From NCBI GenBank assembly GCA_902761755.1, contig CACWLP010000008.1, positions 1-64,000 on the forward strand: DNA of 64,000 nt, read 5' to 3'. Below are positions 1 to 60,759 of this stretch, in pieces (position 1 is the stretch's first letter; each line of letters starts with the position of its first letter). This DNA comes from an uncultured Eubacteriales bacterium. Lineage in GTDB: Bacteria > Bacillota > Clostridia > Christensenellales > Aristaeellaceae. The position numbers were made by a program, and so were the translations under genes. The notes beneath the pieces were generated by a model. It was not told where the DNA came from, made no database searches, and worked only from the letters and a program-made list of their open reading frames with translations.

Positions 1-74
1 CTGTTGCTCCTCGGCGACGTACACGCCGCCGCCTGCGGATTATTGATGAAGGGGCTGTGGCCCCTTCATACTTC
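1..74 (-). repeat. Stem-loop repeat family 1, copy R1 (cut by window edge)
   Basis: Read on the minus strand, this stretch matches the 5' half of the elements at 19799 and 45678: a GAAGGGGC/GCCCCTTC hairpin, a linker reading TCAATAATCCGCAG, a GGCG...CGCC hairpin and the tail CGAGGAGCA. The first hairpin has a CACA loop where the other copies have CGCA. The element lies 3' of murG and runs off the window, so its 3' half is not visible. Confidence 0.8.
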
Positions 75-100
75 CCCAGGATGCTTTGTCGACAGTCTGT

Positions 101-4410: not shown

Positions 4411-4454
4411 GTGGGGGGAACCGCTCTTTGGAGGCCAAAGAGCGGTTCCCCCCA
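4411..4454. repeat. Dispersed palindrome family 3 (ACCGCTCTTT type)
   Basis: A near-perfect 19-base-pair palindrome with arms GGGGGGAACCGCTCTTTGG and its complement lies 20 bases after the YkuD stop. The flank CCCTTCCGAGAAAACCGC links it to three other copies at 15575, 35247 and 35856. As RNA it would form a strong terminator-like hairpin, but no T-tract follows. Confidence 0.75.
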
Positions 4455-4546
4455 CGCCCCCTTCCGAGAAAACCGCTTTTTGGGATATTTGATCGAAGGG
4501 GCTGTGCAGCAGCCCAGCAGACTGTCGACAAAGTACCCTTGGGATG

Positions 4547-4756
4547 CATCGAAGGGCCGCAGCCCTTCGATTTTTCATCCGCAGCGGCGGCATGTACGCC
4601 GCGAGGAGCATTTTTGCGAAGCAGAGCATGCCCTGCGGGAGCAAAAATGCTTTCCTTGCGCCTTTTCCGCCCGGGAGTCCCGCAGGGACAAGAGGAAAAG
4701 GCGTTTTTTGTCGATCAAATGGAGGATCCATTTGATCGATGAGGCTGTGCAGCAGT
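4547..4756 (+). repeat. Stem-loop repeat family 1, copy R2 (variant B)
   Basis: This is the main content of the 375-base gap between the YkuD gene and the VanW gene. Hairpin 1 is ATCGAAGGGC-CGCA-GCCCTTCGAT (4548-4571). Hairpin 2 is GCGGCG-GCATGTA-CGCCGC, followed by the conserved CGAGGAGCA. A GCATTTTTGC/GCAAAAATGC stem (4608-4650) encloses a small hairpin, then a CGCCTTTTCC/GGAAAAGGCG stem follows, then the palindrome CGATCAAATGGA-GGA-TCCATTTGATCG (4712-4738). The last palindrome is shared with R5 at 53319. No coding potential is visible. Confidence 0.8.
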
Positions 4757-4766
4757 CCCCTTGTTT

Positions 4767-13674: not shown

Positions 13675-15465
13675 ATGAGCGAAGATTTTGAAAGCTTATC
13701 CGTAGCAGAACTGCGCCAGAAGGCCAAGGAAATGGGCGTCAAGCTGGGCGCCGGCATCAACAAGCAGGGCATCATCGAAAAGCTGCAAGCCGCCGCGGAG
13801 GGAAACGCCCCCGCCGAGGAAAGCGCGCCCGCGGAGGAATTTGCCCCCGCCCGTCCCGTGCGCAGCGCGGTGCTGATCACCGATGACGAGCCGGAGGAGG
13901 ACGAGGACGATATCCCCGTGCTGACCCCCAACCCCGCCCTGGCTGCCGCGCCCCGCACGCCGCGGACTCCCGTGCCCACCGGCGCCGCCGCCCCGGCCAC
14001 CTCATCCCTGTCTTCTATTTCCGCCAAGGCCCCGGCTTTCACCATGGAAGGCTCCCGGGCCTGGCACAATCCCCGGGCGTACCAGGCTCCCGCAGCCCCG
14101 CGGCACACCGCCGCCCCGGGCTGGAACACCCGGCCCGCCGCCGGCACGGAAAGGGCCTACGGCCGTCCCGACGCTTCCGTACAGGGCGCGGCCCGGCCCC
14201 AGCCCGCCCAGCCTTCCTATCCCGTGCGCTTCGGCCCCGCCGAATCCGCCCCCCAGGAAGCGCCCCGGACGCCTGAAACCCATGCGCCCTACACCCAGGA
14301 TTATCCGCCCCGGCAGGATTATCAGCCCCGCCAGGATTACCAGCCCCGCCAGGATTACCAGCCCCGGCAGGATTATCAGCCCCGGCAGGATTATGCCCCC
14401 CGCCAGGATTACCAGCCCCGCCAGGATTATCAGCCCCAGGCGCCCGCCGGCCCCAGCATCGCCGAGATCCTGGCCGCCGGGGAATGCGGCGACGGCGAAG
14501 GCGTGCTGGACGTGCATCCCGACGGCTACGGCTTCCTGCGGGCCAGCCAGTACCGCCCCGGCAAGGGCGACGTCTACATCGCCAACGCCCAGATCCGGCG
14601 CTTCTCCCTGCGCTCCGGCGATTATGTGGTGGGCAAGACAAAACCGCAGAAGGACAGCGACCGTTTCAGCGCCATGCTCTACATCACCGAGATCAACGGC
14701 CGCGCCGCCGAAGAAACGGAGCAGCGGCCGCGGTTTGAGGAGCTGACCCCGGTATATCCCACCAAGCGGCTCACCCTCCACGCCCCCCGGGCCACGGACG
14801 GGCTGCTGCGGCAGATCGACCTGCTGGCTCCCATCGGCCTCGGCCAGCGGGTGCTGCTCACTTCCCCCGCGGGCGCCGACCGGCTGGAGCTGCTGCGGCA
14901 GCTGGCCGTGGCGGTGGACCGCAGCCACAGCAAGGCCCACCTGATGATCCTGCTGGTGGATCAGCGTCCCGAGGACATCACCTGGATGCAGGAGAACGCC
15001 CCCGGCGAGATCGTATGCACCTCCTTCGATCAGCCCCTGGAGGTACAGGGCCGGGTGGTGGAGCTGGTGATGGAGCGGGCCATGCGCCTGGCGGAAGAAA
15101 AGAAGGACGTGGTGCTCCTTTCCGACAGCCTGAACCGCATCTGCCGCGTCTGGGTGCCCCTTGCCCGGCCCCAGCCGGAGGAAGGCGCCAGCCCCACCGC
15201 CGTGACCCGGGTGAAGCGTTTTCTGGGCATCGCCCGGTGCCTCAAGGAGGGCGGCAGCATCACCCTGGTCACCACCACCGAGGTTTCCGAAGCCCGGCCG
15301 GATCACGCGCTGATGAACGAGATCCGCCGGTACATCAACTGCACCCTGGATGTGAACGCGGATTTCTCCGCCCTGAATACGGACGCCTCCCGGACGGAAA
15401 AAAGCGATCTGATCCTGAGCCAGAAGGATCAGGAGGAAGCCGCCCAGCTGCGGGAAAAAGGCTGA
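13675..15465 (+). CDS. Rho-like protein with degenerate ATPase site
   Basis: The 596-residue product is clearly built like transcription terminator Rho. It has a Rho N-terminal helix bundle (SVAELRQKAKEMGV), a low-complexity insert with seven PRQDY repeats (residues 212-252), a cold-shock RNA-binding domain (GVLDVHPDGYGFLRAS, NAQIRRFSLRSGDYVVGKTK) and the ATPase domain. Several active residues are missing. The P-loop PKAGKT becomes SPAGADRLELL (about 397-407), with Asp-Arg in place of Lys-Thr. The catalytic Glu of IDERPEE becomes Gln430 in VDQRPED. The GTGN Q-loop region is replaced, and the C-terminus stops about 40 residues early. Walker B (VVLLSDSLNR) and the arginine of SGTR (ASRTE) remain. 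It probably cannot hydrolyse ATP and may bind RNA or modulate a true Rho. The ATG follows AAGGAGG. Confidence 0.85.
   Translation: MSEDFESLSVAELRQKAKEMGVKLGAGINKQGIIEKLQAAAEGNAPAEESAPAEEFAPARPVRSAVLITDDEPEEDEDDIPVLTPNPALAAAPRTPRTPVPTGAAAPATSSLSSISAKAPAFTMEGSRAWHNPRAYQAPAAPRHTAAPGWNTRPAAGTERAYGRPDASVQGAARPQPAQPSYPVRFGPAESAPQEAPRTPETHAPYTQDYPPRQDYQPRQDYQPRQDYQPRQDYQPRQDYAPRQDYQPRQDYQPQAPAGPSIAEILAAGECGDGEGVLDVHPDGYGFLRASQYRPGKGDVYIANAQIRRFSLRSGDYVVGKTKPQKDSDRFSAMLYITEINGRAAEETEQRPRFEELTPVYPTKRLTLHAPRATDGLLRQIDLLAPIGLGQRVLLTSPAGADRLELLRQLAVAVDRSHSKAHLMILLVDQRPEDITWMQENAPGEIVCTSFDQPLEVQGRVVELVMERAMRLAEEKKDVVLLSDSLNRICRVWVPLARPQPEEGASPTAVTRVKRFLGIARCLKEGGSITLVTTTEVSEARPDHALMNEIRRYINCTLDVNADFSALNTDASRTEKSDLILSQKDQEEAAQLREKG
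14305..14430 (+). repeat. 18-base tandem repeat encoding PRQDYQ
   Basis: Seven in-frame 18-base units encode PRQDYQ (one copy ends in A) inside the insert of the Rho-like protein. The units are nearly identical in DNA, so recent slippage or expansion is likely and copy number may vary between strains. Confidence 0.9.
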
Positions 15466-15574: not shown

Positions 15575-15619
15575 CTGGGGGAAACCGTTCTTTCGGGGCG
15601 AAAGAACGGTTTCCCCCAG
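15575..15619. repeat. Dispersed palindrome family 3 (ACCGTTCTTT type)
   Basis: Arms CTGGGGGAAACCGTTCTTTC and their complement form a near-perfect hairpin with a short GGGG loop. It is preceded by GCTTTCCTGGAAAG, the flank that also borders the copy at 35856. Its position between convergent genes suits a bidirectional terminator. Confidence 0.75.
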
Positions 15620-16370: not shown

Positions 16371-17673
16371 TGCTGCGCAGCCTCCTTTCCAGGCGTCCCA
16401 CCAGCCAGGTAAAGAACATCACCAGGATCAGGTAGATCGCCGCCACCGCCAGCAGGGGCAGGAAGGGGGAATGGGTGACGCTGCGGATGATGTCGCCGCC
16501 CTTGGTCAGATCCTTTTCCGCCACGTAGCCCACCACGGAGGTTTCCTTCAAAAGCACGATAAACTCGTTGGCCAGGGCGGGCAGCACGTTTTTGAGCGCC
16601 TGGGGCAATATGATGTGCCCCATGGTCTGCACATAGTTGAAGCCCAGGCTGCGGCCGGCCTCCAGCTGGCCCTTGTCGATGCTCATGATGCCGCCCCGGA
16701 TGATTTCCGCCACGTACGCGCCGGAATTGATGCCGAAGGCCAGCACGGCCACCAGCTTGCCGTTATCCGAAGCGGCGAAGACGATGAAATACATGATCAT
16801 CAGCTGGATCAGCACGGGCGTGCCCCGGATCACCGTCAGGTATATCCGGCAGATCCTGTCTCCCAGCGATAAGAAAAACCGGGCGGGGCCGCGGCGCATG
16901 TTTTCGCCGTTCTGATCCCAGGTGGAGCGCACCGTGGCCACCACGGCGCCCAGCGCAATGCCGATGAGCACGGCGAACAGCGTGATCTCCAGCGTCACCA
17001 GCAGGCCGTTCCACAGGAATTTCCACCGGTCGCCGGTAACGAAATTCCGGCGGAAATCCTTGATGATGGGCGATACCTTCCGGTCCGGGGTGATCTTCCC
17101 CGCCATGAACTCGCACAGCGCCATCAATTCTTCGTCGGTGGCGCCGGCGGGCAGGGTGATCCGAAGGCGGATCTTCGCTTCGTCGTAGAGGGAGTCCATG
17201 ACGTATTCCAGCGTCCGTTTTCCGTCCGCCTTTTCGTAGCGCGTCCAGCCCGCCTGGCCGTTCAGCTCCAGAAATTCTGCGTCCTCCCGGGGCTGCGCGT
17301 CCTCCGCCGGGATGGCGTCCACCACGATCAGGCCCTTGTCCATGCCCTCTGCCGATATATAGGCGAAATAATTCGTCAGGGGATCACCGTCGGGATCTTC
17401 CACCTGATTCCTGCTTCCCCGCGGCTTTTCAAATCCCTTGGGCCGGCCGTCGCCCTGCTGGCTCACGTCCGCCACCTTATAGTATTTTTCTTCCCCGCCG
17501 CCCTTGGAGAACCGAGCCACCAGGCGGGTCTGGGTGAAATCGGACAGCTTGCCGTTTTCCTTGATTTTCAGCGCGTCGTCCTCGTTGATCAGCAGAAAAT
17601 ACCCGCCGATCAGCGCCCCCAGCGCCAGGATCGCCGCCGCCAGGATCAGCAGCCGTTTCGTCTTTTTCTTCAT
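16360..17673 (-). CDS. Polar amino acid ABC transporter permease with long N-terminal extension
   Basis: The C-terminal half (from about residue 215) is a normal HEQRo/HisM-type permease with [34 protein letters not shown] and the EAA-loop stretch [24 protein letters not shown]. The first 210 residues are unusual. A membrane anchor (residues 7-28) is followed by a charged, probably extracytoplasmic region of about 185 residues, rich in [12 protein letters not shown]-type loops and [19 protein letters not shown]. Normal permeases of this class have about 220 residues; this has 437. The extension is not an SBP domain I recognise. It lies between the solute-binding and ATPase genes of the operon. 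Confidence 0.88.
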
Positions 17674-17770
17674 CAGAACGCTTCCTTTGGTTCAGTGGGC
17701 GGTGCCTCCGCCCCCGGAGAACAAGCAAAAGGGGGCGATCGCTCGCTCCCTTTTGCGGATCAGAAAAGGC

Positions 17771-18520
17771 TTATTCCGCCGCACCGATGTACTTGCTCAC
17801 GATGGCGTCCAGCACGCCTTCCTCGTCCAGCGCCGCCAGGGCGTCGTTGATCGAATCCAGCAGATCGGTGTTTTCCAGGGCGATGGCGATGGCGTACTCC
17901 TCCTCGACGTACGCGGTCTCCAGGATTTTGAGGCCTTCATTGGCGGCCACGAAAGCCTTGGCGGGCTCGTTGTCGATGACCACGCAGTCCACCTTGCCGG
18001 AGGTCAGGGCCAGCACGGCGTCCGGGCCGGTCTTGTACTTGAACACGGCATCCTCACCGAAATCATCGGTGCAGTAGATATCGCCGGTGGTGGCTTCCTG
18101 CACGCCGATCTTATAGGACGCGCCTTCCGCGTGCAGATCGTCCAGCGAGGCGATGGGGGAATCTTCCTTCACGATGATCACCTGCACGCCGGTGGCGTAG
18201 GAATCGGAGAAGTTCACGCTCTGCAGGCGTTCGTCGGTAACGGTCATGCCGGCCATGCCGAAATCCACCTTGCCGGTGGCCACGGCGTTGATGATGGCGC
18301 CAAATTCCATATCCACGATCTCCAGCTTCATGCCCAGCTTTTCGGCGATGGCGGCGGCGATTTCCGCGTCGATGCCGATAACCGTTTCGCCGTCGTAATA
18401 TTCATAGGGCGGGAACGCGGCGTTGGTGCCCATCTTCAGCACAGGCAGGTCCTCCGCCAGCGCGGCGAAGCAGGGAATCGTCAGGCACAGGGCCAGAATC
18501 ACAGCAAGCAGCTTTTTCAT
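17771..18520 (-). CDS. Polar amino acid ABC transporter, substrate-binding protein
   Basis: The 249-residue secreted protein belongs to SBP family 3. It has a signal peptide (MKKLLAVILALCLTIPCFAALAED), then LKMGTNAAFPPYEYYDGETVIGIDAEIA and the ligand-binding blocks DFGMAGMTVTDERLQSVNFSDSY and IGVQEATTGDIY. No lipobox cysteine follows the signal, so anchoring may depend on the permease extension. The ATG at 18520 was chosen over an upstream in-frame start because it follows GGAGGAAAG and begins the signal peptide. It is the first gene of the operon, with a promoter at 18587-18615 and ARG boxes behind it. Confidence 0.92.
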   Translation of the reverse strand: MKKLLAVILALCLTIPCFAALAEDLPVLKMGTNAAFPPYEYYDGETVIGIDAEIAAAIAEKLGMKLEIVDMEFGAIINAVATGKVDFGMAGMTVTDERLQSVNFSDSYATGVQVIIVKEDSPIASLDDLHAEGASYKIGVQEATTGDIYCTDDFGEDAVFKYKTGPDAVLALTSGKVDCVVIDNEPAKAFVAANEGLKILETAYVEEEYAIAIALENTDLLDSINDALAALDEEGVLDAIVSKYIGAAE

Positions 18521-18586
18521 TTTTCTTTCCTCCTGTTTTCTTTCCACATCCCATACGGGACGCTGCATTTTCCTGGGAACGGCATG

Positions 18587-18615
18587 AGTATACCACCGCC
18601 CGCCCCGCCTGTCAA
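18587..18615 (-). promoter_or_regulatory. Sigma-A type promoter of the amino acid ABC operon
   Basis: On the minus strand TTGACA (18610-18615) and TATACT (18587-18592) are 17 bases apart, about 67 bases upstream of the substrate-binding protein start. Confidence 0.8.
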
Positions 18616-18622
18616 TAGGAAA

Positions 18623-18670
18623 AATGAATTTTTATTCAAATTTATTTTTAACTATGAATATTTATTGATT
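18623..18670. promoter_or_regulatory. Two ARG boxes (ArgR/AhrC operator)
   Basis: The first box (18623-18640) contains TGAATTTTTATTCA, a perfect match to the arginine-repressor consensus TGAATWWWWATTCA. The second (18653-18670) contains TGAATATTTATTGA, one base off in the right half. They are 30 bases apart, about three helical turns, and lie just upstream of the -35 box. This is the only strongly AT-rich patch in the neighbourhood. Confidence 0.75.
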
Positions 18671-18744
18671 TATTCCGGCTGTTTTTGCATAATATACATG
18701 CTGCAGCCGCCCGCCTGCCGGATTTGGGCGGTTTGCGGCCCGGC

Positions 18745-18773
18745 TTTACATCCGGGAGCGGATATGATACAAT
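18745..18773 (+). promoter_or_regulatory. Sigma-A type promoter for miaA
   Basis: TTTACA (18745-18750) and TACAAT (18768-18773) are 17 bases apart; the miaA ATG is 33 bases downstream behind GGCGGAGG. Confidence 0.7.
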
Positions 18774-18805
18774 CCGGGAAAGGCAAAAGAAAGGCGGAGG
18801 CGCGC

Positions 18806-19690
18806 ATGAAGGGCAGGCTGATCGTCATTTTGGGCACCAACGCGTCCGGCAAAAGCGGGCTGGGGGTGGAGCTGGCGAAGAAATACGGCGGGGAGATCGT
18901 TTCCGCCGATTCCCGGCAGGTGTACCGGGGGCTGGACCTGGGCAGCGGCAAGATCACCCCGGAGGAAACCCAGGGCGTGCCCCATCACCTGATCGACGTG
19001 TGCGATCCGGGGGATTTCTTCTCCATGGCAGATTTCCAGCGCCTGGCCTACGCCGCCATCGACGATATCCTGGCCCGGGGCCGGGTGCCCTTCCTGGTGG
19101 GCGGCACCGGGCTGTACGTGGACGCGGTGGCCGACGGCTATATGCTGTCCCTCCGCGCGCCGGACCTGGCGCTCCGGGCGCGCCTGGAGACTTATGAGAC
19201 CCCGGCGCTGTATGAAATGCTGAAAGAAAAGCTGCCGGATACGGACGTGGACCCCAAAAACCGCAACCGGGTCATGCGGGCGCTGGAGCGCCTGGCGGCG
19301 GACGATTATCACCCGGGCAGGCGCAGCCCCCGGTATGAAACCCTGAAGCTGGGAGTCACCTGGCCCCGGGAGATCCTGAAAAAGCGCATCGACCAGCGGC
19401 TGGAAAAGCGGCTGCAGCAGGGCATGGTGCAGGAGGTGCAGCGCCTGCTTAACGCCGGGGTGTCCCCCGAATTCCTGGATAAGCTGGGCCTGGAATACCG
19501 GTATCTGTCCCAGTACCTGCTGGGCAGATGGACTTATGACCAGATGGTGGACGAGCTGGGCCGGGCCATCAAGCGCTTTGCCAAGCGGCAGATGACCTGG
19601 TTCCGCCGGGAAGAAAACCTTCATTGGCTGGACATGAGCGCCGACCCCGTCGCCCAGGCCGCTGCGCTGATCGACGGATTTCTGCATTGA
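18806..19690 (+). CDS. miaA: tRNA dimethylallyltransferase
   Basis: MiaA adds the dimethylallyl group to A37 of tRNAs that read UNN codons. The 294-residue length is normal to slightly short. It has the P-loop LGTNASGKSGLG, with Asn where most relatives have Thr-Ala spacing as GPTASGKT. The catalytic DSRQVYRGLDLGSGKITPEE follows, then HHLIDVCDP and VGGTGLYVDAV. The C-terminal QMTWFRREENLHWLD is typical. The ATG at 18806 starts the homology; the longer open frame upstream is not coding. It is monocistronic, ending in a terminator hairpin at 19741-19770. Confidence 0.95.
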   Translation: MKGRLIVILGTNASGKSGLGVELAKKYGGEIVSADSRQVYRGLDLGSGKITPEETQGVPHHLIDVCDPGDFFSMADFQRLAYAAIDDILARGRVPFLVGGTGLYVDAVADGYMLSLRAPDLALRARLETYETPALYEMLKEKLPDTDVDPKNRNRVMRALERLAADDYHPGRRSPRYETLKLGVTWPREILKKRIDQRLEKRLQQGMVQEVQRLLNAGVSPEFLDKLGLEYRYLSQYLLGRWTYDQMVDELGRAIKRFAKRQMTWFRREENLHWLDMSADPVAQAAALIDGFLH

Positions 19691-19740: not shown

Positions 19741-19770
19741 GATCCCCCGGGAATCATTTCCCGGGGGATC
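19741..19770. terminator. Hairpin terminator after miaA
   Basis: A perfect GATCCCCCGGGAA/TTCCCGGGGGATC hairpin with loop TCAT lies 50 bases after the miaA stop. No T-tract follows, so termination may be weak or Rho-aided. Confidence 0.6.
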
Positions 19771-19798
19771 AGACCATCAACATCGTGCTTTGAGGTAG

Positions 19799-20020
19799 TA
19801 TGAAGGGGCCGCAGCCCCTTCATCAATAATCCGCAGCGGCGGCATGTACGCCGCGAGGAGCAGTCAGAATGACTGCTTCCTCTATCAATTTCTGGCCGTA
19901 ATATGGTAAATCCGGGCATAATTGCCCGGATTTACCATATTACAAGAAATTGATGTTCCCAACGAAAGACTGCTTTAGCTGACTTTCGTTGGCAGGGTGT
20001 CGACTTTGTCGACACCCTGA
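19799..20020 (+). repeat. Stem-loop repeat family 1, copy R3 (variant A, full length)
   Basis: Six consecutive hairpins fill most of the 336-base gap between convergent genes. H1 is TGAAGGGGC-CGCA-GCCCCTTCA (19801-19822). H2 is GCGGCG-GCATGTA-CGCCGC (19836-19854). H3 is AGCAGTCA-GAA-TGACTGCT (19859-19877). H4 is a long arm from 19884 to 19954 with a perfect 21-base-pair inner stem. H5 is CCAACGAAAG/CTTTCGTTGG with a 14-base loop (19959-19992). H6 is AGGGTGTCGAC/GTCGACACCCT (19994-20018). The first five are shared in order with R4 at 45678, with paired changes in the stems. Confidence 0.85.
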
Positions 20021-20026
20021 TCCTTG

Positions 20027-28057: not shown

Positions 28058-28097
28058 CCCCATCAGGCGCCCCAGGCCTACTTTCCAGGAAGCGATA

Positions 28098-28390
28098 CCC
28101 CCTCAGGCGCTCCGCGCCAGCTCCCCCAGAGGGAGAGCTGTTTCACGGCAGCACTGAAAGCTGGCTTTCAGGAAAGAAATCCTTCCCCTCGCTTGCTTTA
28201 CTGCTTCTCCCCCAAAGGACCCCCTCAAGCGCTCCGCGCCAGCTCCCCCAGGGGGAGAGCCGTTTCTCGGCAGCACTCAAAGCTGGCTTTCAGGAAAGAA
28301 ATCCTTCCCCTCGCTTGCTTTACTGCTTCTCCCCCAAAGGACCCCCCTCAGGCGCTCCGCGCCAGCTCCCCCAGGGGGAGAGCTGTCTCC
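28098..28390. repeat. Tandem repeat of about 122 bases, two and a half units
   Basis: Units begin at 28098, 28220 and 28343, the last one partial, and are almost identical. Each contains TCAGGCGCTCCGCGCCAGCT, a CCCAGGGGGAGAGC stretch, and GAAAGCTGGCTTTCAGGAAAG. They are short-spaced copies of a type of intergenic element seen in many gut Clostridia. This fills most of the 493-base gap before the DUF559 remnant. I see no conserved open frame in the repeat. Confidence 0.85.
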
Positions 28391-35246: not shown

Positions 35247-35289
35247 GCGGGGGAACCGCTCTTTGGAGGCCAAAGAGCAGTTCCCCCGC
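35247..35289. repeat. Dispersed palindrome family 3 in front of pyrE
   Basis: Arms GCGGGGGAACCGCTCTTTGG and their near-complement (one mismatch, GC to AG) form a hairpin. The flank CCCCTTCCGAGAAAGCCG matches the copy at 4411. It lies within the pyr row, 23 bases upstream of pyrE. Confidence 0.75.
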
Positions 35290-35855: not shown

Positions 35856-35900
35856 CCGGGGGAAACCATTCTTTGACCTTCAAAAAATGGTTTCCCCCAG
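35856..35900. repeat. Dispersed palindrome family 3 (ACCATTCTTT type)
   Basis: Arms CGGGGGAAACCATT and AATGGTTTCCCCCAG pair around an A/T-rich centre. The flank GCGGTTTTCTTGGAAGGGGG matches the copy at 15575. It lies between pyrF and the HExxH gene. Confidence 0.72.
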
Positions 35901-45677: not shown

Positions 45678-45876
45678 AAGTATGAAGGGGCCGCAGCCCC
45701 TTCATCAATAATCCGCAGCGGCGGCGTGTACGCCGCGAGGAGCAGTCAGAATGACTGCTTCCTATATCAATTTGCGGCCGTAAAATGAGCGTATCCGGGC
45801 ATCTCTGCCCGGATACGCCATTTTACAGCAAATTGATGTGACCATCGAAAGACTGCTTTAGCTGGCTTTCGATGGT
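45678..45876 (+). repeat. Stem-loop repeat family 1, copy R4 (variant A)
   Basis: H1 to H5 of copy R3 occur in the same order. H1 is TGAAGGGGC-CGCA-GCCCCTTCA (45683-45704), H2 GCGGCG-GCGTGTA-CGCCGC (45718-45736) and H3 AGCAGTCA-GAA-TGACTGCT (45741-45759). H4 has base ATCAATTTGC/GCAAATTGAT (45766-45837) and a long inner arm with one bulge. H5 is CCATCGAAAG/CTTTCGATGG (45842-45875). H4 differs from R3 at paired bases (CT/AG versus GC/GC), as does H5 (A-T versus T-A). H6 is missing. It fills most of the 300-base gap between pyrC and the MarR gene. Confidence 0.85.
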
Positions 45877-45880
45877 TAGT

Positions 45881-46336
45881 TTACGGCTCCATGTTCCCCA
45901 GCATTTTCCGCAGCAGGGTATAGAGCTGGAACGCCTCGTCGTGGGTCAGGGAAATGCAGCAGCCCACCTGCCCGGGCACGTCCTTCACCCGGCGGCGCAG
46001 ATCCCAGCCCTTCTCCGTCACCGTCACGGTGACCACGCGCTCGTCCTGCTTGCTGCGGCTGCGCTGCAGGACGCCCTCCTCCTCCATTTTCTTGAGCAAG
46101 GGGGTGACGGTGCCGTTATCCAGGTACAGCCGGCGGCACAGATCCCCCACCGTGGCGCTGCCGCTCTCCCACAAGGCCAGCAGCACGATGTACTGGGTGT
46201 AGGTGATGCCCAGGGGCCTGAGCAGCGGATTGTAATGGTTCACCACCATCCGGGCCGCGGCGTACAAGGGAAAGCACAGCTGGCCGTCCAGCAGCAGCTG
46301 CGGCATATCTGTCAAAGGATGATCCTGTTCGCTCAT
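45881..46336 (-). CDS. OhrR/MarR-type redox-sensing transcriptional regulator
   Basis: The 151-residue product belongs to the MarR family. The start LLLDGQLCFPLYAAARMVVNHYNPLL has the cysteine (about residue 21) that OhrR repressors use to sense organic peroxides. The conserved LGITYTQYIVLLALWE block and the winged helix LCRRLYLDNGTVTPLLKKMEEEGVLQRSRSKQDERVV follow. A second Cys pair (GCCISLTHDE) near the C-terminus may form the disulfide partner as in two-Cys OhrR. It lies behind trxA on the same strand, so it probably controls the thioredoxin operon and itself. Confidence 0.88.
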   Translation of the reverse strand: MSEQDHPLTDMPQLLLDGQLCFPLYAAARMVVNHYNPLLRPLGITYTQYIVLLALWESGSATVGDLCRRLYLDNGTVTPLLKKMEEEGVLQRSRSKQDERVVTVTVTEKGWDLRRRVKDVPGQVGCCISLTHDEAFQLYTLLRKMLGNMEP

Positions 46337-46401
46337 TCCCGCGTCCTCCTTAATGTGAAAGCAGGCGGCCGGACCGCTCCGGCCGCCCGCACCCCGTGTG
46401 C

Positions 46402-46716
46402 TTACAGCTTGCTTTCGATCCAGGCGATGAGCTGCGCTTCGGGGCGGAAGCCCACGGACTGATCCACAAACTGGCCGTTTTTCAGCAGCACCAGGCAGGG
46501 AATGGAGCTGACCCGGTACGCGCCGGCCAGAGCGGGCGCTTCGTCCACGTCCACATTGTAAACGTCCACCCGGCCCGCCAGCTTTTCGCTGATGCTCTCC
46601 ACGATGGGAGCCAGCATCCGGCAGGGGCCGCACCAGACGGCGGAAAAATCCACCAGCGCCGCGGCGCTCTTCTTCGCTTCCTGTTCAAACTGTTCCGCAT
46701 TGATCTTCTTTACCAT
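46402..46716 (-). CDS. trxA: Thioredoxin
   Basis: The 104-residue protein has the redox motif SAVWCGPCRMLAPIVES (WCGPC at about residues 28-32), the cis-proline RVSSIPCLVLLKNGQ, and the final helix LIAWIESKL. It reduces disulfides with electrons from a thioredoxin reductase. It follows the reductase-like gene by 15 bases. A second, separate trxB gene is at 59489. Confidence 0.95.
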   Translation of the reverse strand: MVKKINAEQFEQEAKKSAAALVDFSAVWCGPCRMLAPIVESISEKLAGRVDVYNVDVDEAPALAGAYRVSSIPCLVLLKNGQFVDQSVGFRPEAQLIAWIESKL

Positions 46717-53245: not shown

Positions 53246-53360
53246 TGGAGGGGCCGCAGCCCCTCCAAGTGTAATCCGCAGCAGCGACCTGTGCGCTGCG
53301 AGGAGCATTTGTATCTGTCGATCAAATGGAGGATCCATTTGATCGAAGGGGCTGTGCAAC
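53246..53360 (+). repeat. Stem-loop repeat family 1, copy R5 (variant B)
   Basis: H1 is TTGGAGGGGC-CGCA-GCCCCTCCAA (53245-53268). H2 is GCAGCG-ACCTGTG-CGCTGC (53281-53299), which differs from the other copies in both arms yet pairs fully. Then follow CGAGGAGCA and the palindrome CGATCAAATGGA-GGA-TCCATTTGATCG (53319-53345), shared with R2. The 290-base gap between convergent genes also holds a GGATGTTG/CAACATCC pair at 53135-53174. No coding potential is seen. Confidence 0.82.
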
Positions 53361-60428: not shown

Positions 60429-60664
60429 TTTCCGGGGGCTTCTTCAGCCCCCGAACCCCTGAACCAGGGGGATCCTCCCCCTGGACCCAATCTTTTTATG
60501 CTGTTTGATATTCCCGGGCAGGCGACAAAGCCGCCTTGCGATGTGCCTCGGAGTTTCCGGGGGCTTCTTCAGCCCCCGGACCCCCGAACCAGGGGGATCC
60601 TCCCCCTGGACCCTACCTTCTTTTGCTGTTTGATATTCCCGGGCAGGCGGCAAAGCCGCCTTAC
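60429..60664. repeat. Tandem pair of about 125-base repeats
   Basis: Units at 60429-60553 and 60554-60664 share TTTCCGGGGGCTTCTTCAGC, ACCAGGGGGATCCTCCCCCT, and TGCTGTTTGATATTCCCGGG with a GGCGGC-type hairpin. Each holds a GGGGGCTTCTTCAGCCCCC hairpin and a CCAGGGGGATCCTCCCCCTGG palindrome. Together with the structure at 60634 and the family 2 repeat at 60829 they make up the 484-base gap between trxB and nrdD. Confidence 0.85.
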
Positions 60665-60759
60665 GGTGCGCGCAGCGCACCGGGAAAACAAGCGAGATAC
60701 CCGAGAAAAACGCGAGCGCTTTTCTCGGGTATCTCGCTGTTTTCCTCCGCCCGGGAATA
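60634..60759. other. Four-way-junction-like nested inverted repeat
   Basis: An outer stem TATTCCCGGGC/GCCCGGGAATA (60634-60644 with 60749-60759) encloses three hairpins. They are GGCGGC-AAA-GCCGCC (60646-60660), CGGTGCGC-GCA-GCGCACCG (60664-60682), and a long arm of about 26 pairs with one bulge (60683-60745). The last has GCGAGATACCCGAGAAAA opposite its complement. The result would be a compact cloverleaf-like fold in RNA or extruded DNA. It is not a tRNA: no anticodon loop or T-loop motifs are present. Confidence 0.75.

Follow-up and report, generated by a model that had tools for sequence, protein, structure and literature searches.

The two hairpin arrays R3 and R4 of the window (the whole 64-kb stretch of DNA analysed) belong to a single repeat family of ~250 bp. 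We read this family as a non-autonomous transposable element (MITE) whose most likely movers, acting in trans, are DDE transposases of the IS1182 family, which would recognise its CAGACTGTCGACAAAG-like ends and duplicate whole terminator-like target hairpins; we give this reading a probability of roughly 0.86. The sequence evidence behind it comprises the ends, the hairpin targets, the duplication of whole hairpins, one insertion with three empty sites, and insertion sequences (ISs) of the same genus that have like ends and duplicate their targets likewise. Of the identities proposed in the earlier note on this DNA, that of a non-autonomous mobile element is borne out by the ends held in common with IS1182-family ISs, the hairpin target duplications and the empty sites. 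An IS1182-type MITE is a known kind of element, of which the whole-hairpin duplication and the unusually structured interior make the present family a variant.

R3 and R4 lie where they had been placed in that note and carry their hairpins in the identical order, with 88% identity over 201 columns, and the paired stem changes quoted there for H4 and H5 are present in the sequence. The boundaries, however, had to be redrawn: R3 is a complete copy, running from 19770 to 20019, whose right end is formed by a sixth hairpin, and R4, which had been called a full copy, retains its five hairpins and has lost both terminal parts (Table 1). The predicted fold energies are -134.8 kcal/mol for R3 and -112.9 kcal/mol for R4. 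The insertion site of R3 is half decayed, its left hairpin being complete and the right copy being reduced to ATCC at 20020-20023, and R4 stops 3 nt before a MarR-family gene on the minus strand (45881-46633) reaches its stop codon position. R1, R2 and R5 are partial relatives, with modules missing or different; R1 is abutted by a hairpin at 101-121, R2 is flanked on both sides by imperfect hairpin repeats (4498-4515 and 4741-4760, by eye), and the right hairpin of R5 (53318-53346) is the alternative right hairpin of R2.

Table 1. Copies of the element in the window, with the parts and neighbours of R3
Feature	Position	Strand	Remarks
R1	3..99	-	left part of a copy, truncated by the contig start
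R2	4518..about 4740	+	copy with a different right part
ORF with IPP transferase domain, miaA-like	17504..19690	+	R3 lies 3' of this ORF
R3, target terminator-like hairpin, left copy	19741..19769	.	read from the sequence
R3, complete element	19770..20019	+	ends CAG...CTG, 250 bp, six hairpins; nhmmer model 2-250
R3, hairpin H1	19800..19823	+	fold
R3, hairpin H2	19836..19854	+	fold
R3, hairpin H3	19855..19882	+	fold
R3, hairpin H4	19883..19955	+	long stem, GGCC bulge; fold
R3, hairpin H5	19959..19992	+	fold
R3, hairpin H6 = right terminal repeat	19993..20019	+	fold
R4	45682..45877	+	H1-H5 kept, both terminal repeats lost
R5	53223..about 53346	+	short, eroded copy

The window also holds a separate palindromic repeat (GGGGGAACCGCTCTTTGG...) at 4414-4452, 15578-15616, 35249-35287 and 35859-35897; in the relative locus L115 the element has inserted into a palindrome very like this one, and such a palindrome is also found beside L134. 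Direct repeats, tandem or spaced, occur at 14278-14455 (18 nt), 28097-28389 (about 122 nt) and 60429-60671 (about 125 nt spacing). As the earlier note had supposed, no Rfam class corresponds to the array: there were no gathering-level matches in the window, and four chosen loci gave sub-threshold ones only.

The genome from which the window comes (G000) is a draft of 2.2 Mb in 46 contigs, 73% complete. R3 matched it in 51 rows, which fall into 40 places, and 18 of these places are no more than 100 nt away from a contig end; the assembly breaks at the repeat, so that the true copy number is probably higher. Among 60 genomes, including this one, R3 found matches in 32, distributed as 29 of 29 in the genus, 1 of 7 in other genera of the family and 2 of 24 in other families of the order, and the further copies in related genomes on which the earlier note had made its claim depend are therefore many. 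The core pattern occurs in at least 110 stretches of the GTDB collection; the 80 matches listed are MAGs titled Clostridiales, Clostridia or Christensenellaceae, with one Synergistales, several being named from rumen or reticulum. The element core is also present on two viral contigs. In five relatives, an exact end pattern was found at 13 places in 3 genomes. When 291 genomes of the class were searched for exact matches to the 16-base end, only the window's own genome had any, a search that says little about range because relatives carry end variants.

Terminator-like hairpins as insertion targets

Most intact ends directly adjoin a terminator-like hairpin, and in many cases an A-tract lies outside on the left and a T-tract outside on the right (by eye). 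The same sequence stands in direct repeat on both sides in 34 of the 61 full copies for which both flanks were available, against none of 300 control pairs of flanks taken from different copies. Repeats anchored at the element ends were found in 35 of 67 copies, with lengths spread over 18-38 bp; 33 of these 35 duplications are palindromic, and 27 of 35 are centred to within 2 nt, the palindrome criterion without centring holding also for 161 of 1320 random flank windows. The other 27 full copies have no flanking repeat at the threshold used, and among these a hairpin is present on one side only in L001, L112 and L121 and none is visible in L118, L147 and L155. L060 and L139, which occupy one shared site, have a short flanking repeat that is not a hairpin. 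Where both an end pair and flanking repeats were found, 41 of 47 elements measure 140-350 bp. This outcome differs from stem-loop removal without duplication, of the IS1272 type: the hairpin stands on both sides of the element and is single at three empty sites.

These empty sites were found with the right flank of the copy L222, of genome G006, as the query against 14 genomes. Near-full-length matches were obtained in G026 (93%), G003 (82%) and G011 (77%), the count being restricted to such matches and leaving aside nine genomes with partial matches only; the three genomes have one hairpin and no element at this site, while G006 has the hairpin on both sides. R3 itself is absent after the orthologous miaA-like gene in all 24 of the other genus genomes compared (131-420 nt each), four more having no usable match. 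Some copies stand in opposite orientation between homologous flanks of different genomes (L013 versus L197 and L256, and L236 versus L204), owing either to independent insertions at one terminator or to flipping between palindromic duplications. Five copies (L003, L005, L160, L201 and L209) have an extra, GGGCCGAAGCGCC...-like hairpin module inside H1 or between H2 and H3, as if it had been inserted into the element's own hairpin.

The location of the copies was scored at 106 sites, with neighbour strands taken from a rough codon-score call, pieces of one element merged and orthologous sites kept separate; 86 elements with too-short flanks and 19 unscored ones were set aside. The sites comprise 44 convergent, 56 codirectional and 6 divergent ones, and this position at gene ends fits the targeting of terminators. 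The earlier suggestion of a 3' end element holds as to location, 100 of the 106 scored sites lying 3' of at least one neighbouring gene on this rough gene-strand call. At the codirectional sites, the genes run along the element's plus strand in 16 cases and against it in 40 (p=0.002), a split of 6 to 25 where an end is missing and of 10 to 15 in full copies. Two copies (L024 and L069, in two genomes) lie just upstream of a tmRNA-like start, presumably that of ssrA.

Transposases usually make short, fixed-length duplications, and a fixed stagger would be expected from a DDE transposase acting on B-form DNA; here the stagger is as long as the hairpin, whatever the hairpin's length. We propose that the transposase joins both strands at the feet of the target hairpin, so that after gap repair the element would stand between two full hairpins. 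The length of the duplication varies with that of the hairpin, and the simplest target would therefore be an extruded cruciform or a folded hairpin and not B-form DNA cut at a fixed stagger; this agreement in length suggests that targets are chosen by DNA structure. The host gene should in this way keep a terminator, which would make gene ends a mild landing place, and the giving back of the terminator suggests a route to tens of copies with little harm.

IS1182-family insertion sequences with like ends

The exact left-end 16-mer was found in 13 viral stretches, with an adjoining hairpin in 8. A 36-base query from one of these matched six plasmids, all of Staphylococcus, over 20 bases, and a 36-base query had no match among phage records; in the two plasmids inspected, the end lies ~120 bp before an annotated IS1182-family transposase. 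Within the genus, a search for the IS1182 transposase gave matches in 15 of 29 genomes, in 2 of them above the cut-off, and found none in G000 (73% complete). Both are complete ISs, namely L370 (in G027; 1544 bp, open frame of 479 aa, flanked by a perfect hairpin duplication of 33 bp) and L369 (in G020; 1540 bp, with one TAA in its gene and a perfect 22-bp hairpin duplication), to which the IS1182-family model NF033551 gives 431 bits and, for the part after the stop, 358 bits, respectively (cut-off 270). An IS1182-family IS of Staphylococcus simulans likewise has a perfect hairpin duplication, of 27 bp. Twelve occurrences of the end were found at 10 loci. Six of them have a downstream direct repeat of 21-36 bp, L330 and L332 having one flank in common, and two of these six belong to short forms (L331 and L327, described below); in five others the remaining sequence is no longer than 162 nt, and one, L368, is without a flanking repeat. 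The duplication lengths given for IS1182 in ISfinder vary widely, and single whole-hairpin cases may be recorded there.

The ends of the MITE match those of the two same-genus ISs (1,540 and 1,544 bp), and the likeness is confined almost wholly to them: blastn of MITE copies against both ISs gave 15-19 nt matches at the ends only, plus one internal match of 14 nt, and the MITE model was found nowhere in either. The left ends of the MITE match IS right ends and once an IS left end, and one MITE right end matches an IS left end. In a comparison of 24-nt ends, which took only the 36 CAG left ends and 44 CTG right ends of 60 copies and therefore favours the first three letters, the IS ends scored above 300 shuffles against the MITE left ends; against the MITE right ends, the IS left ends exceeded the shuffles and the IS right ends came near the shuffle maxima, no better. 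From these like ends and like duplications we infer mobilisation in trans.

Shorter and longer forms also occur. A viral contig carries, from L331:3761 onward, a 697-bp form with a 36-bp hairpin duplication, which we read as an IS1182-type IS with an internal deletion, and another, from L327:463 onward, a 192-bp element with a 31-bp hairpin duplication. The sequence at L052:1499-2982, of 1483 bp, is bounded by the element's ends and has a hairpin duplication, and a 352-aa frame resembling APH-family phosphotransferases (Pfam E 3.1e-9) takes the place of a transposase in it; this gene speaks against an autonomous element, and the element ends may thus carry cargo.

Paired changes and the conserved fold

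Double changes are present in 45 of 64 predicted pairs among 60 aligned copies. In a tree-based null of our own writing in the manner of R-scape (59 rows, 237 columns, 40 simulations, the misaligned L030 dropped), 13 of 62 structure pairs reached E<0.05, which places the covariation above the phylogenetic background against which the earlier note had proposed to judge it; nine pairs outside the structure also reached E<0.05, of which eight fall within H2, a hairpin with two alternating stem types, and one lies at columns 169/171. RNA hairpins cannot be told from DNA hairpins by covariation alone. The reasons considered below for the internal stems staying paired are conditional.

In eight groups of copies both flanks are common to different genomes, although some of these copies may have inserted separately into one site. 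Ten orthologous comparisons, which are non-independent and for which the flank values are best local matches, gave an element identity of 74-100% in ungapped columns. It exceeds that of both flanks in L197/L256 (100% versus 91 and 85%), in L202/L208 (100% versus 95 and 93%), in L226/L061 and in three comparisons among L273, L209 and L201 (in one of them barely), several of these better-conserved copies being without ends; it is about equal to the flanks in L060/L139 and lower than the better flank in L064/L066, L071/L070 and L024/L069. The stem pairs in the same non-independent comparisons comprise 668 unchanged, 20 double-compensated, 21 one-sided and 20 broken ones. The structure is thus kept in place at several sites, with conversion and palindrome correction as possible readings. 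Selection for structure, as claimed in the earlier note, is on this ground plausible, some orthologous copies being better conserved than their flanks, and stands beside palindrome correction, conversion between copies and a need in transposition as alternatives.

The elements could tentatively be regarded as a structured RNA with a host function, a 3'-UTR stabiliser or regulator spread by transposition, whose hairpins are kept for the RNA fold. The covariation beyond the tree-based null, the orthologous elements more conserved than both flanks, several of them without ends, the sites at 3' ends and the codirectional bias of 16 to 40 would all agree with such a role, but the three comparisons in which the better flank surpasses the element in conservation do not, nor do the 20 of 61 changed stem pairs that are broken between orthologues in non-independent comparisons. 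The strand test, on which we base no conclusion, does not agree with it either: G-U pairs outnumber A-C pairs by 128 to 22, with two pairs supplying 83 of the 128 and a sign test of 24 to 8 that ignores phylogeny, and this excess favours the strand opposite to that favoured by the orientation bias.

Double, single G-U and broken changes are about equally common among orthologues (20, 21 and 20), and paired changes occur in all major stems, as would be expected if they were mutational and arose without selection, by template-switch quasi-palindrome correction or by conversion between copies. Correction of imperfect palindromes is established in bacteria. We nevertheless hold this explanation to be rather doubtful as a full account, as the loops, the linkers and the 4-nt bulge of H4 are strongly conserved too and correction leaves them unexplained. 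Conserved loops and linkers would instead be understandable if the internal hairpins were needed for transposition itself, as binding sites or for DNA folding, and young copies with perfect duplications do keep the whole hairpin array; what makes such a need somewhat unlikely is that hairpin duplications also occur at copies with modules missing or replaced (L045, 156 bp; L038, 164 bp; L036, 175 bp) and that the IS shares only its ends with the MITE.

For the MITE and its probable IS1182-family mover, a fuller history may be sketched, which we put forward as speculative. One branch of IS1182 transposases would attach the ends of its element to extruded terminator hairpins at their 5' feet, each insertion copying a whole intrinsic terminator; the six-hairpin MITE would so have come to occupy the ends of genes throughout a clostridial genus of the rumen, and its older copies would have been taken over as 3' UTRs selected for their fold. 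With many copies, both young and old, the family could be used to test whether mobile hairpins become working mRNA 3' ends.

Other movers and known systems

Cas1 duplicates a palindromic repeat. A different long-duplication enzyme, whether an IS1202/ISNCY-type transposase or a Cas1-like integrase acting as in casposon insertion, is nevertheless a very improbable mover: the element is present in 29 of 29 genomes and Cas1 in only 3 of 29, while ISNCY_2 matched weakly in 5 of 29 and over the cut-off in 0 of 29, so that in most of these genomes, which are incomplete, the element was found without such a mover. There is, besides, an IS1182 IS whose ends and duplications resemble those of the MITE. 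The multi-copy ISNCY_2 match of G018, which we take to be IS481/IS3-like, has ends unlike those of the MITE. A further pattern, CAGAGCATCGACAAAG, was found in 18 viral stretches; none of the four inspected had an adjoining hairpin, so that these matches are probably due to chance.

Group IIC introns resemble the present MITE in inserting next to terminator hairpins. To our knowledge, they differ from it in making no target duplication and in possessing a conserved domain V, and none of the intron families in Rfam matched the window. The IS1202 subgroup is similar in its unusually long target duplications of 16-28 bp, which speak for a mover of that type, and differs in its ends (TGT...ACA) and in belonging to another transposase family, a hairpin target not being reported in the accessible part of its description (PMC10132070). 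BOX, RUP and SPRITE of pneumococcus are likewise small, intergenic, hairpin-rich and thought to be MITEs, BOX being modular and SPRITE terminator-like; their sequences and ends are different, and the accessible text of the two sources reports no duplication of a terminator hairpin (PMC3049150, PMC10969869). MITEPye1 of Paracoccus yeei is closer, with IS1182-like terminal repeats, an intergenic location and the ability to fold, but it is 159 bp long, has 4-bp direct repeats and occurs at 1-3 copies per chromosome, and neither a hairpin duplication nor a covarying hairpin array is reported in the accessible part of its description (PMC11578231).

IS1272/TnSha1 of staphylococci, for which PMC4923244 gives the assignment of IS1272 to the IS1182 family, has a transposase of the same family by model (NF033551 for the ISs of the genus), and its targets, as far as the accessible text of the source describes them, are stem-loops, several of them confirmed as terminators (PMC4923244). 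In that system the stem-loop is deleted or replaced, the IS1272 target hairpin being partially deleted (PMC4923244), and no target duplication is described in the accessible parts of the sources (PMC5678879, PMC4923244), whereas here the whole hairpin is duplicated. Duplication was drawn by Wan et al. in 2017 as a hypothetical 'pathway b', and in the accessible open-licence literature whole-terminator duplication has no report beyond that branch (PMC5678879). The present copies thus supply the published IS1272 model with natural cases of its duplication branch, which is hypothetical in the accessible part of that source (PMC5678879), and what they add to the known systems is this natural evidence together with a six-hairpin MITE whose older copies, some of them without ends, persist at gene ends.
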